Below, in pieces: positions 1 through 27,615 of a DNA stretch of 37,669 nt (the first letter of the stretch is position 1; each line of letters begins with the position of its first letter). Source of the stretch: Candidatus Desulfovibrio intestinigallinarum (GTDB lineage Bacteria > Desulfobacterota > Desulfovibrionia > Desulfovibrionales > Desulfovibrionaceae); the NCBI GenBank assembly GCA_019114565.1, contig DXFI01000072.1:1-37669 (forward strand). Direction: 5' to 3'. The notes under the pieces were generated by a model. It had not been told where the DNA came from and made no database searches. It saw only the letters and a list, made by a program, of their open reading frames with translations. Made by a program: the position numbers and the translations under genes.

Positions 1-133
1 GGGGGGCTTGGGGGGAAGGGAAAAACCTCTCGCGCCAGCAGCGACCGAAGGCGGCCGCAGGCCGTGCCCGTTGCGACGAAGGAAGCTACGGGCATCGACA
101 GCAGAGATGAGGGGTTTCCCTTCCCCCCAAACA
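1..133 (-). repeat. Family C hairpin with loop insert, copy C1 (truncated by window edge)
   Basis: 10-29 GGGGGGAAGGGAAAAACCTC pairs with 109-128 GAGGGGTTTCCCTTCCCCCC; insert from about 27 nearly identical to 8531-8635. Confidence 0.8.
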
Positions 134-8134: not shown

Positions 8135-8187
8135 CCGGGGGAGGGGAACCCCCTTGGCTAGCGCGCAAGGGTGTTCCCCTCCCCCCG
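8135..8187 (+). repeat. Family C G-arm/C-arm hairpin, copy C3, downstream of mnmA
   Basis: CCGGGGGAGGGGAACCCCCTTG...CAAGGGTGTTCCCCTCCCCCCGG near-perfect stem, then CCCCCACCCTTCCCCCAACGCGCTTTT shared with other copies. Confidence 0.8.
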
Positions 8188-8280: not shown

Positions 8281-8403
8281 TAAAACGCGAGGCTGCGGCA
8301 CAGCCCACCCAGCCCAAAGTGAGCGAAAAAAAACGCATTTTTTCCACGAAACGACAGGCCGTATGGTTTGAAATGTGAAGCGTTTCAAACTGAAAATGCC
8401 ATA
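8281..8403 (+). repeat. Family A multi-hairpin repeat, copy b (5' end truncated)
   Basis: Matches other copies: AACGCGAGGC..., CACGAAACGACAGGCCGTATGGTTTGAAATGTGAAGCGTTTCAAACTGAAAATG. Confidence 0.85.
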
Positions 8404-8432
8404 GAATATTTGATGAACGTTTGCTGCTGGCT

Positions 8433-8640
8433 TCCCCGTCTTCCGAAAAAGCGCGCTGGGGAAAGGATGGGGGGCTTGGGGGGAAGGGCCCAGCCTTTTC
8501 ACAGCGCAGCGAGAAAAGGCGTTCTCGTAGTCCTCTCGCGCGAGCAGCGACCGAATGGCGGCCGCAGGCCGTGCCCGTTGCGACGAAGGAAGCTACGGGC
8601 ATCGACAGCAGAGATGAGGGGTTTCCCTTCCCCCCAACAG
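8433..8640 (-). repeat. Family C hairpin with loop insert, copy C4 (downstream of the lactate permease, minus-strand sense)
   Basis: GGGGGGAAGGG at 8478-8488 complements CCCTTCCCCCC at about 8625-8635; from about 8531 the insert is nearly identical to window start 27-133. Confidence 0.85.
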
Positions 8641-12311: not shown

Positions 12312-12373
12312 CAGAACGCGAGGCGGCACAGCGCCGCCTCGCGTTTCACCTTTTTCAAAGTTGGAACGCTCCA
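12312..12373 (-). repeat. Family A repeat, copy c (truncated), abutting a family B element
   Basis: Minus-strand GGAGCGTTCCAACTTTGAAAAAGGTGAAACGCGAGGCGGCG...; includes a 13-bp perfect stem AACGCGAGGCGGC/GCCGCCTCGCGTT. Confidence 0.8.
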
Positions 12374-12680
12374 GGGTCAGGACTCATTATCAGATGTTGA
12401 TTTTCCGGGATATTCATCCATGTAATGATGTGAAAAAAGAAAAAAAACAAAATATCATTGCATGTTACAAAAATGTCCATCTTTACCCGTCAGACTCCGC
12501 GCGCGGGTTTTGGGGAGGATGGGGGAGTTTTAGGGGGAAGGAACCCCTTTTTGCCGCAAGCAGCGACCCAACGGGCGGCCGAAGGCCGTGTCCGTTAGGC
12601 GACGCAGGAGCCTTACGGACATCGACAGCAGAGCAAAGGGGATCCTTCCCCCTCAAGACAAACGTAATGCGTCCTGACCC
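12374..12680 (-). mobile_element. Family B MITE-like element (307 bp) containing a family C hairpin with loop insert
   Basis: Terminal inverted repeats GGGTCAGGACTCATTAT / GGGTCAGGACGCATTAC; right flank TA, left flank CA; interior collinear with 27252-27480. No transposase ORF. Confidence 0.8.
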
Positions 12681-14203
12681 TAGCGGCCGTCTTCTTCCCG
12701 CAGCCGCCAGAGAGTTTGCAGGCGTCGGGCATAGCTGTGCTTTGCGCGCAGCTCCTCCCGCCAGGCGGCGCAGAACGCTTTTGTTTTTTCCGGCGACGCG
12801 GCAAAGGTCTCCAGCCGCTCCGGCAAATCCGCGGGACGGCGCAGACGCATGGGTTCCACCAGTGACGCGGGGAATATCTCCAGCCCCGGCGTGGCGTCGC
12901 TCAGCAGCAGACCATGCGCGGCCCAGACATCGAAATGACGCTGACTCAGGCTGTGCGGCAACAGCAGACTCGTCACGTTAAGCACAGCGCCGGAACGCGC
13001 ATAGAGTTCCGGCAGGCCCGCATAATAATCCACGGGAGGCTCCACGGGAGCGCCGGGCAGCACATTCCGCCAGCCATCGTCACCCACAAGGCGCAGCTTC
13101 GCCGCCGCCAGAGCTTCCCGCACCCAGTGCACGCGCCGGGCCTGCGAACAGCTTTCCGCCCCCAGTCCCACGCAGCGCACGGCAGTCCCCGGCCAGCAGT
13201 CCCCGCCCAGCCGTTCGTGCCACCAGTGAAAATCCGGCGGTACGGGATCGTCCGCCGCCACCAGTTGCAGGCCCTCGGTCAGCAGCTCCGGCGGAACCGA
13301 GGCAGCGGCAAAGAAGCTCCCCTTGCGCGGAAAGGCGGAACGCCCCACAAACAGCGGCGACCCCTCCCTCCGGCACAGCGGCGCATGCCACATATGCGGC
13401 GCAACGGCCAGCGGCAGCAGCGACACATGTTGCGCGCCCGCCCGCCGCAGACCATCAAGAAAGCTCGCATCCGTGACGCATATGCGGCAGTCCCGCCACC
13501 ACGGCCCGCGCGCGGCGCTCAACAGATGCCAGGGATTATCCACGCACCAGATGACGACGGAAATCCCCGCCGCAAGGCAGGCATGCGCAAGTCGCCCCTC
13601 GGCATCCAGCCCCCGCAGATTGACGGAAAGCAGCATGGCCGGCGCATGCGCCGCCGCCCGGCGCAGCAGCGGAAAGAGCGCGGCCCCTCCCTTGTCCGGC
13701 GGATAGTCCAGGACGCGCAGCCCCAGTTCCCGGGCGGCATGCCGCAGCTCCAGATGCAGCAGCCCGTGTTCGTCGCCGGGCAGGATCAGCAGAGGCCCGG
13801 CCCCGACGGCACGCGGCGGCAGCGGACAGCAGGCCGCCGCCATACGCCCCAGCAGCGGCCCCCAGAACTCCGGCGCAAGACGCAGCCCCGGCCTGTAGAA
13901 ATAACGGCGGCAGCGCGCCGCCAGCGTTACGGCCTGTTCCGGCGTCACCTCCTGCCATGAGGACGGCGGCAGCGGCGCGTCCGGCAGCGCGCGGCGCGTG
14001 TCCGGACAGTCCAGCCAGAACACGCGCCCGGAAGCGGCAAAGGGCAGCGCCGCCGGATCTTCCGGCCCCAGCCCCAGCAACAGACAGTCGCCGCCTTCCG
14101 GGCCCGCCGCTTCCCACTGACGGGCATCGCCCGAAAGCGTCAGCGGGCGTCCGCAAAAATCAGGAATCGCAACACGGCGGGGAGCTCGGGGGGAAGACGT
14201 CAT
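12680..14203 (-). CDS. Glycosyltransferase, CgeB/DUF3880-like
   Basis: [38 protein letters not shown], and C-terminal [40 protein letters not shown], as in CgeB-type family members. Start set at [10 protein letters not shown]. Confidence 0.75.
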
Positions 14204-14924: not shown

Positions 14925-15068
14925 CGCGCTTTGCCTTTGAACAAGGCGGAACGCGAGGCGGCGGCACAGCGCCGCCCGGCCCGAAGTGAGCGGAAAAACC
15001 GCTTTTTTCCGCGAAATGACAGGCCGTACGATCTGAAACGCCACGCGTTTCAGACTGAAAAAGCTCTG
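14922..15068 (+). repeat. Family A multi-hairpin repeat, copy d; begins at the rlmE stop codon
   Basis: TAACGCGCTTTGCCTTTGAACAAGGCGGAACGC aligns without gaps to the consensus left end TAGAGCGTTTCAACTTTGAAAAAGGTGAAACGC; downstream hairpins conserved. Confidence 0.85.
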
Positions 15069-15215
15069 GCGTGCGCTCCGGCGCGGCTCTTTCCGGTCGA
15101 CGCCCGCACGTCCCCCTTGCCAGAACGCACGCGCCGTCTTTCCGGCACACGTTTACCGGCGCTGTCCTGCTCAGGACAATCCGCCATATACACTTTTCTC
15201 TTTTTTGGAGGTCAT

Positions 15216-16102: not shown

Positions 16103-16250
16103 TAGAGCGTTTCAACGTTGAAAAAGGTGAAACGCGAAGCGGCGGCACAGCGCCGCCCGGCCCGAATTGAGCGGAAAACCACGCTTTTTCCACAAGACGA
16201 CAAGTCGTATGCATTTGAAACGCAACGCGTTTCACACTGAAAATTCTTCA
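16103..16250 (+). repeat. Family A multi-hairpin repeat, copy e
   Basis: TAGAGCGTTTCAACGTTGAAAAAGGTGAAACGC...GACGACAAGTCGTATGCATTTGAAACGCAACGCGTTTCACACTGAAAATTC. Confidence 0.88.
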
Positions 16251-16259
16251 GGGCTCTCT

Positions 16260-16775
16260 GTGGTAACAGTCATCGGCATAGACCCCGGTTCCCGCCTCAT
16301 GGGCTGGGGTATCGTCAGCGACCGCTCCGGCGTTCTGCGTCTGGAGGGCTGCGGCGTCATCCGCGGCGCTCAGGGCCCGGACAAAAGCTTTTCCGCGCGT
16401 CTGGCCCGTATCTATGCCGATCTGAACGACGTTATCCGGCAGTATAAGCCCACGGAAGCCGCCATAGAGCAGGTTTTCACCGCCCACAACGCCGCCACGG
16501 CCCTCAAGCTCGGGCAGGCGCGCGGCGTGGCCGTGGCGGCCTGCGCCGCATACGGCATCGGCGTCAGCGACTACCCGCCCACGCTGGTCAAAAAAACGCT
16601 GGTCGGCACCGGCAGCGCCGCCAAGGAACAGGTGTCCTTCATGATCCGCCGCCTTCTCAATCTCCGCGACGAACAATGGGACCCGCGCTGGACGCTGGAC
16701 ACGTCCGACGCGCTGGGCATCGCCATCTGCCACCTTACCATGCGCCGCTTTGCCGCTCTTCAGGCCTCGCACTAG
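16260..16775 (+). CDS. ruvC: Crossover junction endodeoxyribonuclease RuvC (GTG start inferred)
   Basis: VTVIGIDPGSRLMGWGIV, AAIEQVFTAHNAATALKLGQARGVAVAACA, DALGIAICHL; the upstream ORF extension lies inside repeat copy e. Confidence 0.95.
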   Translation: MVTVIGIDPGSRLMGWGIVSDRSGVLRLEGCGVIRGAQGPDKSFSARLARIYADLNDVIRQYKPTEAAIEQVFTAHNAATALKLGQARGVAVAACAAYGIGVSDYPPTLVKKTLVGTGSAAKEQVSFMIRRLLNLRDEQWDPRWTLDTSDALGIAICHLTMRRFAALQASH

Positions 16776-16921
16776 AGCGTTTCAACTTTGAAAAAGGTGA
16801 AACGCGAAGGCGGCGGCACAGTGCCGCCCGGCCAAAAGTGAGCGGAAAAACTGCGCTTTTTCCGCGAAACGACAGGCCGTATGGTTTGAAATGCAAAGCA
16901 TTTCAAACTGAAAATGCTCTA
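16773..16921 (+). repeat. Family A multi-hairpin repeat, copy f (best-preserved, 149 bp); begins at the ruvC stop codon
   Basis: TA|GAGCGTTTCAACTTTGAAA ... TTTCAAACTGAAAATGCTC|TA; four consecutive stem-loops including GTTTGAAATGC-AAA-GCATTTCAAAC. Confidence 0.92.
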
Positions 16922-16972
16922 GCCTCAGGGCTCATTGCATTTTGTTTTGAGGGATAACGCTTTCAGGGAGCA

Positions 16973-19433: not shown

Positions 19434-19497
19434 GGAACCGTCCCGGGATCGCCGCTTGTCGGAATGCAGAAGAGCGGAGAAAATCGCTCCGCAACCT

Positions 19498-19643
19498 TAG
19501 AGCATTTTCAGTTTGAAATGCTTTGCGCTTCAAACCATACGGCCTGTCGTTTCGCGGAAAAACGCGGTTTTCCGCTCGCTTCGGGCCGGGCGGCACTGTG
19601 CCGCCGCCTCGCGTTTCACCTTTTTCAAAGGTAAGAGCCTCTG
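19498..19643 (-). repeat. Family A multi-hairpin repeat, copy g
   Basis: TTAGAGCATTTTCAGTTTGAAATGCTTTGCGCTTCAAACCATACGGCCTGTCGTTTCGCGGAAAAACGCGG...GCGTTTCACCTTTTTCAAAGG. Confidence 0.9.
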
Positions 19644-22453: not shown

Positions 22454-22596
22454 ACGAGAGCGTTTTACCTTTGAAAAGCAACACGTGAGGCGGCACTGCG
22501 CCGCCCGGCCCGAAGTGAGCGGGAAAACGCCTGTTTCCGCGAAACAACAGGCCGCAGGGCTTGAAACGCGCAGTGTTTCAGACGGAAAATGCCCGA
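22454..22596 (+). repeat. Family A multi-hairpin repeat, copy h (diverged)
   Basis: GAGAGCGTTTTACCTTTGAAAAGC...GAGGCGGCACTGCGCCGCCCGGCCCGAAGTGAGCGGGAAAACGCCTGTTTCCGCGAAACAACAGGCCG...TGTTTCAGACGGAAAATG. Confidence 0.85.
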
Positions 22597-22633
22597 GGAC
22601 GACATCGCCGGCGCACCGCCGAAGAGGGAAACA

Positions 22634-24167: not shown

Positions 24168-24178
24168 AATCACTTTTG

Positions 24179-24262
24179 TTGAGGGGGAAGGAACCCCTTT
24201 TGCTTGCGGCAAAAAAGGGTTCCTTCCCCCTCAAACTCCCCCATCCTCCCCAAAACCCGCCT
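24179..24262 (+). repeat. Family C G-arm/C-arm hairpin, copy C7, downstream of the ABC ATPase
   Basis: TTGAGGGGGAAGGAACCCCTTTTGC...GCAAAAAAGGGTTCCTTCCCCCTCAA stem followed by ACTCCCCCATCCTCCCCAAAACCCGC. Confidence 0.85.
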
Positions 24263-24264
24263 GT

Positions 24265-24415
24265 TAGAGCAATTTCAGTTTGAAATGCTTCGCATTTCAA
24301 ACCATACGGCCTGTCGTTTCGCGGAAAAAGCGCGGTTTTTCCGCTCACTTTGGGCCGGGCGGCGCTGTGCCGCGCCGCCTCGCGTTCCGTCTTTTTCAAT
24401 GGCAAAACGTTCTGA
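24265..24415 (-). repeat. Family A multi-hairpin repeat, copy i
   Basis: TTAGAGCAATTTCAGTTTGAAATGCTTCGCATTTCAAACCATACGGCCTGTCGTTTCGCGGAAAAAGCGCGGTTTTTCCGCTCACTTTGGGCCGGGCGGCG... Confidence 0.92.
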
Positions 24416-26088: not shown

Positions 26089-27252
26089 ATGCCTTCTTTT
26101 TCTGTCCGCCCGGAAATCGCCGCCCTCAGTCCCTATGTGCCGGGCATGTCCATTGAAGAAATCCGGCAGCGTTATCAGCTGGAAAATGTCGTCAAGCTGG
26201 CCAGCAATGAAAATCCCCTCGGCACGCCGCCGCTGGCCGCGGAAGCCATCCGCCGCTGCGCCGCGGGGGCCTTCCGCTACCCCCAGTCCGGCAATCCGCG
26301 CCTTGCGGCCGCGCTGGCGGAACTGCACCACGTCGATGCGCGGCGCATTGCCATCGGCAACGGCTCCGACGAAATCCTCGACATGCTGATTCGCATGCTG
26401 GCCGAACCGGGGCGCGACAATATTGTCTGCTTCCGCCCCTGCTTCAGCATTTATCCCATTCAGAGCAATATCTGCGGCGTGGAAGTCCGCAGGCAGTCCC
26501 TCAACGGCGACTTCAGCTTTGATTTCGACGCCCTGCTGAATCTCGTCACCGACAGGACGCGCCTCGTCTTCATCACCACGCCGGACAACCCCTCCGGCTA
26601 CTGCCCGCCGCGTGCCGACGTGGCCGCTCTGGCTGCCCGGCTTGCCGCCAGGGCCCCGCAGGCCCTGCTGGTCATCGACGAAGCCTATATGGATTTTGCC
26701 GGAGACGATGCCGACGGCGAGCGCCGCTTCTCCCTGCTGGCAAACAGCGAACTGCCGAATAACGCTCTCGTCTGCCGCACCTTCTCCAAAAGTTACGGCC
26801 TGGCCGGACTGCGTATCGGCTACGCCGTGCTTCCCGAAGAGCTGGCCCAGTATTACTGGCGCGCCCGCCTGCCCTTCTCCGTCAACGTGCTGGCCGAGGA
26901 GGCCGCGCTGGCGGCCCTGCGCGACACGGCCTTCCGCGAAGCCACGCTGACGCTTGTCCGCACGGAACGTCGCCGCCTGACAGAGCGCCTGCGCGATCTC
27001 GGTTTTTCCGTCTGGCCCAGCCATGCCAACTTCCTCCTCTGCCGCCCCGATGACGACGGCCCCGATGCCAAAGCCTGCTTTGAGGCCCTGCTCAAACGCG
27101 GCTTCATCATCCGCCCGCTCGGCAGCTATCAGCTGCCGGATCATCTGCGCATCAGCATCGGCACAAAGGAAGAAAACGACGCCTTCCTCGCCACGCTGGA
27201 AGATGTGCTGCGCGAGCTGGATACGAACGAACACCGGGCCGACGTCTTCTAG
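26089..27252 (+). CDS. hisC: Histidinol-phosphate aminotransferase
   Basis: LASNENPLGTPPLAAEAIRR, TPDNPSGYCPP, VIDEAYMDF, RTFSKSYGLAGLRIGYAVLP (PLP Lys), IRPLGSYQLPDHLRISIGTKEEND. Confidence 0.95.
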   Translation: MPSFSVRPEIAALSPYVPGMSIEEIRQRYQLENVVKLASNENPLGTPPLAAEAIRRCAAGAFRYPQSGNPRLAAALAELHHVDARRIAIGNGSDEILDMLIRMLAEPGRDNIVCFRPCFSIYPIQSNICGVEVRRQSLNGDFSFDFDALLNLVTDRTRLVFITTPDNPSGYCPPRADVAALAARLAARAPQALLVIDEAYMDFAGDDADGERRFSLLANSELPNNALVCRTFSKSYGLAGLRIGYAVLPEELAQYYWRARLPFSVNVLAEEAALAALRDTAFREATLTLVRTERRRLTERLRDLGFSVWPSHANFLLCRPDDDGPDAKACFEALLKRGFIIRPLGSYQLPDHLRISIGTKEENDAFLATLEDVLRELDTNEHRADVF

Positions 27253-27480
27253 GGTCAGGACTCATTATCAGATGTTGATTCCCCCGACATATTTTCCTGC
27301 TCACGATATAGAAAAAAATAAAACATCATTGCATGTTATAAAAAAATCCATCTTTACCCGCCTGCACATTATGTGCGGGTTTTGGGGAAGATGGGGGAGT
27401 TTGAGGGGGAAGAAACCACTTTTTGCCGCGAGCAAAAGGGGTTTCTTCCCCCTCAAGAAAACCGTAATGAGTCCTGAGCC
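27252..27480 (+). mobile_element. Family B MITE-like element (229 bp) containing a family C hairpin without insert
   Basis: Termini GGGTCAGGACTCATTAT / GGCTCAGGACTCATTAC (inverted), flanked by TA on both sides (27250-27251, 27481-27482); interior collinear with 12374-12680. Confidence 0.85.
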
Positions 27481-27615
27481 TAAAGCGTTTCAACTTTGAA
27501 AAAGGTGAAACGCGAGGCGTCCAGCGCCGCCCGGCCCGAAGTGAACGGAAAAAGTGCGTTTTTTTCCGCGAAACGACAGGCCGTATGCTTTGAAAGCATA
27601 ACGTTCCAAACTCGC
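27481..27615 (+). repeat. Family A multi-hairpin repeat, copy j (right end degenerate)
   Basis: TAAAGCGTTTCAACTTTGAAAAAGGTGAAACGCGAGGCG...CGCGAAACGACAGGCCGTATG. Confidence 0.88.

Follow-up and report, generated by a model that had tools for sequence, protein, structure and literature searches.

The insert at the tips of three G-rich hairpins in the stretch of 37,669 nucleotides analysed here (the window) belongs to a real, strongly structured and uncurated family of REP-like repeats, the long form of which, a perfect four-way junction in its predicted fold, is nested in the larger hairpins as one exact unit of about 70 nt (GCGACC…GACAGCAGAGAT/AGAGC). Probably, this tip insert is a dispersed repeat of the Desulfovibrionaceae lodged in the loops of MITE hairpins, where it would have arrived as a folded strand and been copied further as a passenger. 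The unit is not confined to the MITE hairpins, being found in unrelated contexts, in tandem arrays and in several other genera.

Results

Copy number and distribution of the unit

The source genome is a 2.9-Mb Desulfovibrio assembly of 297 contigs, and the named matches to the same hairpin are nearly all from this genus. About 100 copies of the unit are present in it, a figure that combines two partly overlapping sets of pattern matches, 47 for the pattern AGCAGCGACCNAANNGGCGGCCGNAGGCCGTG at ≤3 mismatches and 56 for the type I P3 pattern; the reversed controls gave 0 in both cases, and the insert is therefore not a product of chance. The unit was matched in 23 of 41 genomes by a genus-level scan, while the covariance-model search of other genomes, which the original prediction had proposed, brought further copies of the long module in 22 of 149 Desulfovibrionaceae genomes, that is, in 8 of the 44 sampled genera. 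Outside this family, no long module was detected among 198 phylum-wide genomes. Filled elements are present in D. piger ATCC 29098 and in one D. piger-like genome. Most copies are intergenic, 8 of 156 falling within a predicted ORF (heuristic ORFs).

A match to a known Rfam family, named beforehand as the result that would speak against a new module, did not appear, as no family scores above the gathering threshold for the unit. The phage and plasmid collections contain no match to the unit by nucleotide similarity, yet its simple relatives are carried by unannotated viral contigs, and no description of the unit was found in the literature on Desulfovibrio REPs or MITEs. Separately, a type II hammerhead ribozyme was recognised in a related genome (L292:2680-2745, minus strand; 65.4 bits, above the Rfam gathering score), at a distance of some 1.1 kb from a module copy.

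Table 1. Coordinates of the units, their carriers and the adjoining repeats in the window (TIR, terminal inverted repeat)
Feature	Position	Strand	Remarks
Unit copy 1, GCGACC...GACAGCAGAGAT	41..108 (insert span 37-106)	+	Type I hairpin truncated by contig end
Unit copy 2	8547..8615	+	Type I hairpin; model match 8543-8613, 90.4 bits
Unit copy 3	12563..12634 (insert span 12559-12633)	+	Type II hairpin
Helices of copy 3	P1 12563-12566/12622-12626, Pa 12567-12575, P2 12576-12588, P3 12589-12621	+	
Type II MITE with unit (filled)	12372..12682	+	TIRs 12372-12389 and 12665-12682
Type II MITE without unit (empty)	27250..27482	+	Junction 27434/27435; TIRs TAGGGTCAGGACTCATTA and TAATGAGTCCTGAGCCTA
Empty type II hairpin within 27250..27482	27401-27456	+	Hairpin span
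Type II hairpin without unit (empty)	24174..24260 (hairpin 24179-24234)	-	Degraded end sequences
Type I-like hairpin without unit	8137..8186	-	Loop CTTGCGCGCTAGCC; read directly
Outer type I hairpin of copy 2	8469..8637	+	Added stem-loop insert ~8481-8528 in 5' arm
Repeats GAGCGTTTCAACTTTGAAAAAGGTGAAACGCGAGGCGG...AAACTGAAAATGCTCTAG	161-217, 8294-8404, 14926-15069, 16105-16240, 16775-16922, 19497-19642, 22489-22597, 24264-24412, 27483-27615		

Folding and covariation

The three inserts were recovered at the positions given in the original prediction, except that the second starts at 8543 and not at 8537, and the exchange of the stem TGCCCGT/ACGGGCA for TGTCCGT/ACGGACA (12589-12595 with 12615-12621) was found as described. 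The stem had been called covarying, which holds owing to the many copies elsewhere, but the window itself contains one event only, with identical inner stems at 37 and 8543. The mini-hairpin CGGCC-GNA-GGCCG is likewise present, although the picture of two hairpins was incomplete: three hairpins stand on the closing stem, the CC(C)...(G)GG mini-helix having been missed. In the minimum-energy folds of several copies, this short conserved helix, Pa, fills the space between P1 and P2 without a nucleotide left over, and the single strand of the unit is accordingly predicted to form the junction P1-Pa-P2-P3 with no unpaired junction bases. The loops of P2 and P3 are GNA-type triloops on the written strand and UNCG-type tetraloops on the complement, and tandem G-A mismatches lie beneath the loop of P3. 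Both strands are equally stable under RNA and DNA folding parameters, with no strand preference. As for the structured RNA module that had been proposed, the conserved structure and the compensatory changes stand, but its RNA nature does not follow, the strands folding alike and the likely mRNA strand being the complement.

In a MAFFT alignment of 44 diverse copies, which was blind to pairing and was scored on a structure picked by the analyst, 91% of the cells are paired and 7 pairs are changed on both sides; none of 500 shuffles equalled this result, and sliding the partners by 1-3 columns left 18-39% paired. RNAalifold by itself recovered P2 and P3. For 29 copies from several genera, arranged by hand on the structure and thus biased toward it by the pairing-guided procedure, standard pairs make up 99.1% of the total and compensatory double changes affect 10 of 21 pairs, compared with 89.3% paired and a mean of 3.6 (maximum 7) double-change pairs in the shuffles. 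The compensatory changes include G-C to C-G in P1 (14 to 15), C-G to T-A in Pa.1, G-C to C-G or A-T in P2.3, and G-C to C-G, T-A or A-T in P3.2.

Simple relatives, inverted pairs and arrays

Simple REP-like palindromes of related genomes, CTTCAG/CGCTAG-CCGTT…TACGG-ATGAAG/ATAGCG-ACAGC, have P3 with its ACAGC tag in common with the long unit, but neither Pa nor P2. Neighbouring hairpins 20-60 nt apart, chiefly simple palindromes with some long-form partners, are arranged in the +- orientation in 55 cases versus 3 in the -+ orientation, with the tags inward, and the long unit is paired with the short form at L300 and L291. The long unit occurs singly and also in head-to-tail arrays with a period of about 71, equal to one unit (one example being C236), and the simple hairpin forms 48-nt tandem arrays on two viral contigs (L243:1-200 and L247:7170-7470), the first of them upstream of an ORF that, we presume, resembles a phage tail-collar protein.

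MITE carriers

The three hairpins had been taken for one family; in the source genome the unit occupies the loops of two G-rich MITE hairpin types, with the inserts at 37 and 8543 in type I and that at 12559 in type II. The type II MITE, with the ends TAGGSTCAGGACTCATTA…TAATGAGTCCTGAGCCTA, no coding capacity and a TA-type target, shares its terminal repeats of ~18 bp with an IS5-family element of the same genome, as is characteristic of MITEs; this 832-bp copy with type II ends encodes a frame-broken IS5-type transposase (DUF4096, 1.6e-14; DDE_Tnp_1, 5.4e-8). The type I ends are TAGGGCCTGTTAACACTA, with TIRs present (L282); the fragmented assembly shows no pair of ends at a spacing of ~1 kb. 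At 12372-12682, a relative with a 91% identical flank has a vacant orthologous site, from which the adjoining repeat is also absent and at which the target duplication is not cleanly readable. At two other loci, a type I MITE was found in relatives where the source genome has type II. The MITEs are often adjoined by a second high-copy repeat family, GAGCGTTTCAACTTTGAAAAAGGTGAAACGCGAGGCGG...AAACTGAAAATGCTCTAG. Besides, a modular stem-loop insert of the 5' arm (...TACGGGAACGCCTTTCC-TCGCTTTGCTGC-GGAAAGGCTGGG...) was observed in the window and at L010, L015, L016, L029, L030 and L036, and the hairpin of the relative L237 that corresponds to the window copy is without it.

Filled and empty carriers

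The claim that the insert is gained or lost at the tip as a unit is supported in so far as insert-free versions of the same hairpins exist in the window (Table 1) and the difference is one exact unit. With the junctions marked by slashes, 58 type II empties share the near-uniform GAGCA/AAAGGGG versus the filled AGCA/GCGACC...AGAGC/AAAGGGG, and 116 type I empties likewise have CTAGCA/GAGGGG versus the filled AGCA/GCGACC...AGAGAT/GAGGGG. Thus, in both types the filled carrier equals the empty one plus exactly one tandem-array unit, placed after AGCA, with no target duplication. Polymorphisms beside the insertion point occur in the filled and empty states alike, and the state does not track the tree of the outer arms (15 changes, compared with a mean of 12.3 after shuffling), which is short and poorly resolved, with no well-supported branch. 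Repeated movement of the unit at the hairpin tips is likely, and falls short of proof because this tree is unsupported and gene conversion between copies could equally scatter the two states. Among the relatives, no MITE was found to be filled at a locus in one species and empty at the same locus in another.

Stop codons and gene orientation

The right end of the MITE supplies the neighbouring gene with its stop codon, mostly TAG, in 19 of 30 testable cases, and the left end lies at a stop in 4 of 15 (random positions, 1.2%; any CTA, 8.1%), and the gene on the ACAGC (right-hand) side is directed toward the module 99 times versus 9, all these counts being based on heuristic ORF calls, with the left side depleted by contig ends at repeats. 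The right-end CTA of the filled MITE in the window is the TAG stop of the next gene, on the minus strand. From the orientation to the genes, the complement of the written strand is likely the usual mRNA-sense strand. The placement at stops is set by the carrier and not by the module, because, of the 20 empty type II MITEs whose end is recognisable, 12 are likewise no more than 10 nt from a stop; it would be explained if the target is TA, which is frequent at stops when a genome is rich in G+C, and if insertions elsewhere are removed by selection. At identical stop codons, relatives can bear the other MITE type.

Search for a mobilising enzyme

The Y1 transposase is absent from the repeat-rich genomes G037, G007, G017, G025 and G106, and the sole Y1 of the source genome is an IS605-type TnpA beside TnpB with no repeat copy nearby; none of the Y1 loci examined is flanked by the repeat. 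A present-day RAYT origin was rejected on these grounds, and an autonomous element with repeat copies at its borders was rejected for want of a recurrent gene in the regions between the copies. An integron attC site, compared by its core motifs, was dropped, as no matching site pair closes the structure.

Discussion

Origin of the tip insert

The probable course of events is that the unit travelled as a folded single strand of DNA, which an HUH-like or other structure-reading enzyme, perhaps since lost, would have cut and joined, and that insertion favoured palindrome loops in a single-stranded, exposed state. Within a MITE, the unit would be carried along as a passenger whenever the IS5-type transposase copied the element, and a MITE hairpin set on a stop codon would become part of the 3' untranslated region of the neighbour, with a possible role in stabilising or terminating the mRNA, as REPs have elsewhere. 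An RNA function by way of this setting is possible. A further-reaching proposal, which we regard as quite unlikely, is a new class of mobile DNA cassettes, in which a single-strand unit of ~70 nt, whose built-in Holliday-like junction would be acted on by a structure-reading recombinase or a host junction-processing enzyme, would move exactly in and out of hairpin loops without a dedicated transposase.

The strong conservation of pairs and the compensatory changes across genera would also be expected of a functional structured RNA, a 3'-UTR element or a small RNA, whose junction selection would maintain in the transcript as a 3'-end protector, a part of a terminator or a protein-binding site. 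The strand-biased placement, both in gene direction and at the stops of the right MITE end, agrees with it, as do the loops of the complement strand, which read C(UNCG)G, such tetraloops being ultrastable in RNA. However, neither strand folds better as RNA, the module also forms tandem arrays and pairs up in inverted orientation with REP hairpins, the 58 and 116 carriers without it show it to be dispensable, the position at stops comes from the carrier, and no Rfam family corresponds to it, so that this explanation is unlikely, if worth keeping in mind. The module may instead be an original part of the MITE hairpin, with the empties derived by deletion where replication slipped at the foot of a stable hairpin, a reading that appears rather unlikely. 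The short direct repeats AGCAG flanking the module (read directly) and its equivalent places in the outer types I and II are consistent with it, and the filled elements of the D. piger genomes imply that the filled state is old. Loss by slippage at the flanking repeats was nevertheless rejected, as the predicted CTAGCAGAGATGAGGGG (type I) and GAGCAAAGGGG (type II, between GAGCA copies) differ from the observed CTAGCAGAGGGG and GAGCAAAAGGGG, and the module is also found in very different outer contexts and as simple tandem units.

In being palindromic, of high copy number and arranged as inverted dimers, the repeats are like REPINs (PMC3116915), and this likeness would suit a classical GTAG REP that a RAYT transposase of these bacteria still mobilises. 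This origin is very improbable and already largely refuted: no Y1_Tnp adjoins the repeat, several repeat-rich genomes have none at all, and the conserved tag is ACAGC/GCTGT, the GTAG tag being absent.

Comparison with known repeat systems

REP-type repeats for which no transposase is known have long been puzzling, and the family of the nested unit offers a compact test case: a single genome holds hundreds of like carriers that differ mainly by the exact tip unit, covariation defines the structure as far as the base pairs of the junction, and relatives, some of them culturable, are spread over several genera. In addition, the MITE ends that serve as the stop codon of a neighbour tie mobile hairpins to 3' untranslated regions.

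With the REP/REPIN systems served by RAYT, the repeats described here have in common short high-copy palindromes, a tag by the hairpin, inverted dimers or clusters, and bulged single-strand folding, but they differ in their tag, in having no RAYT, and in the long form, which gains two helices to give the four-way junction. The CGTC-tagged REPs, including the Neisseria dRS3, are also without a known transposase (Di Nocera et al. 2013, PMC3733652); they have 8-9 bp stems beginning with AT and loops of 4-5 nt, and TGTC and CCTC variants of the tag exist (PMC3733652). The nesting of REPs in larger palindromes is already known, because Di Nocera et al. reported CGTC REPs as dimers inside larger palindromes in H. 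neapolitanus, and GTAG REPs similarly nested in A. variabilis and T. roseum; Desulfovibrio is unmentioned in the main text of that paper (PMC3733652). The unit resembles the CGTC REPs in this nesting, in having no known dedicated transposase and in the TGTC read on its complement strand, but its stem is more complex and does not start with AT, and the 8-9 bp stem with the 4-5 nt loop is absent. The published nesting therefore proves no membership, as the unit departs from the tag and stem rules of both REP superfamilies. The type II carrier is like other IS5-family MITEs in its ~18-bp terminal repeats of an IS of the same genome, its TA-type target and its non-coding sequence, and unlike them in that the loop of its G-rich hairpin holds the REP-like unit and its right end doubles as a TAG stop.
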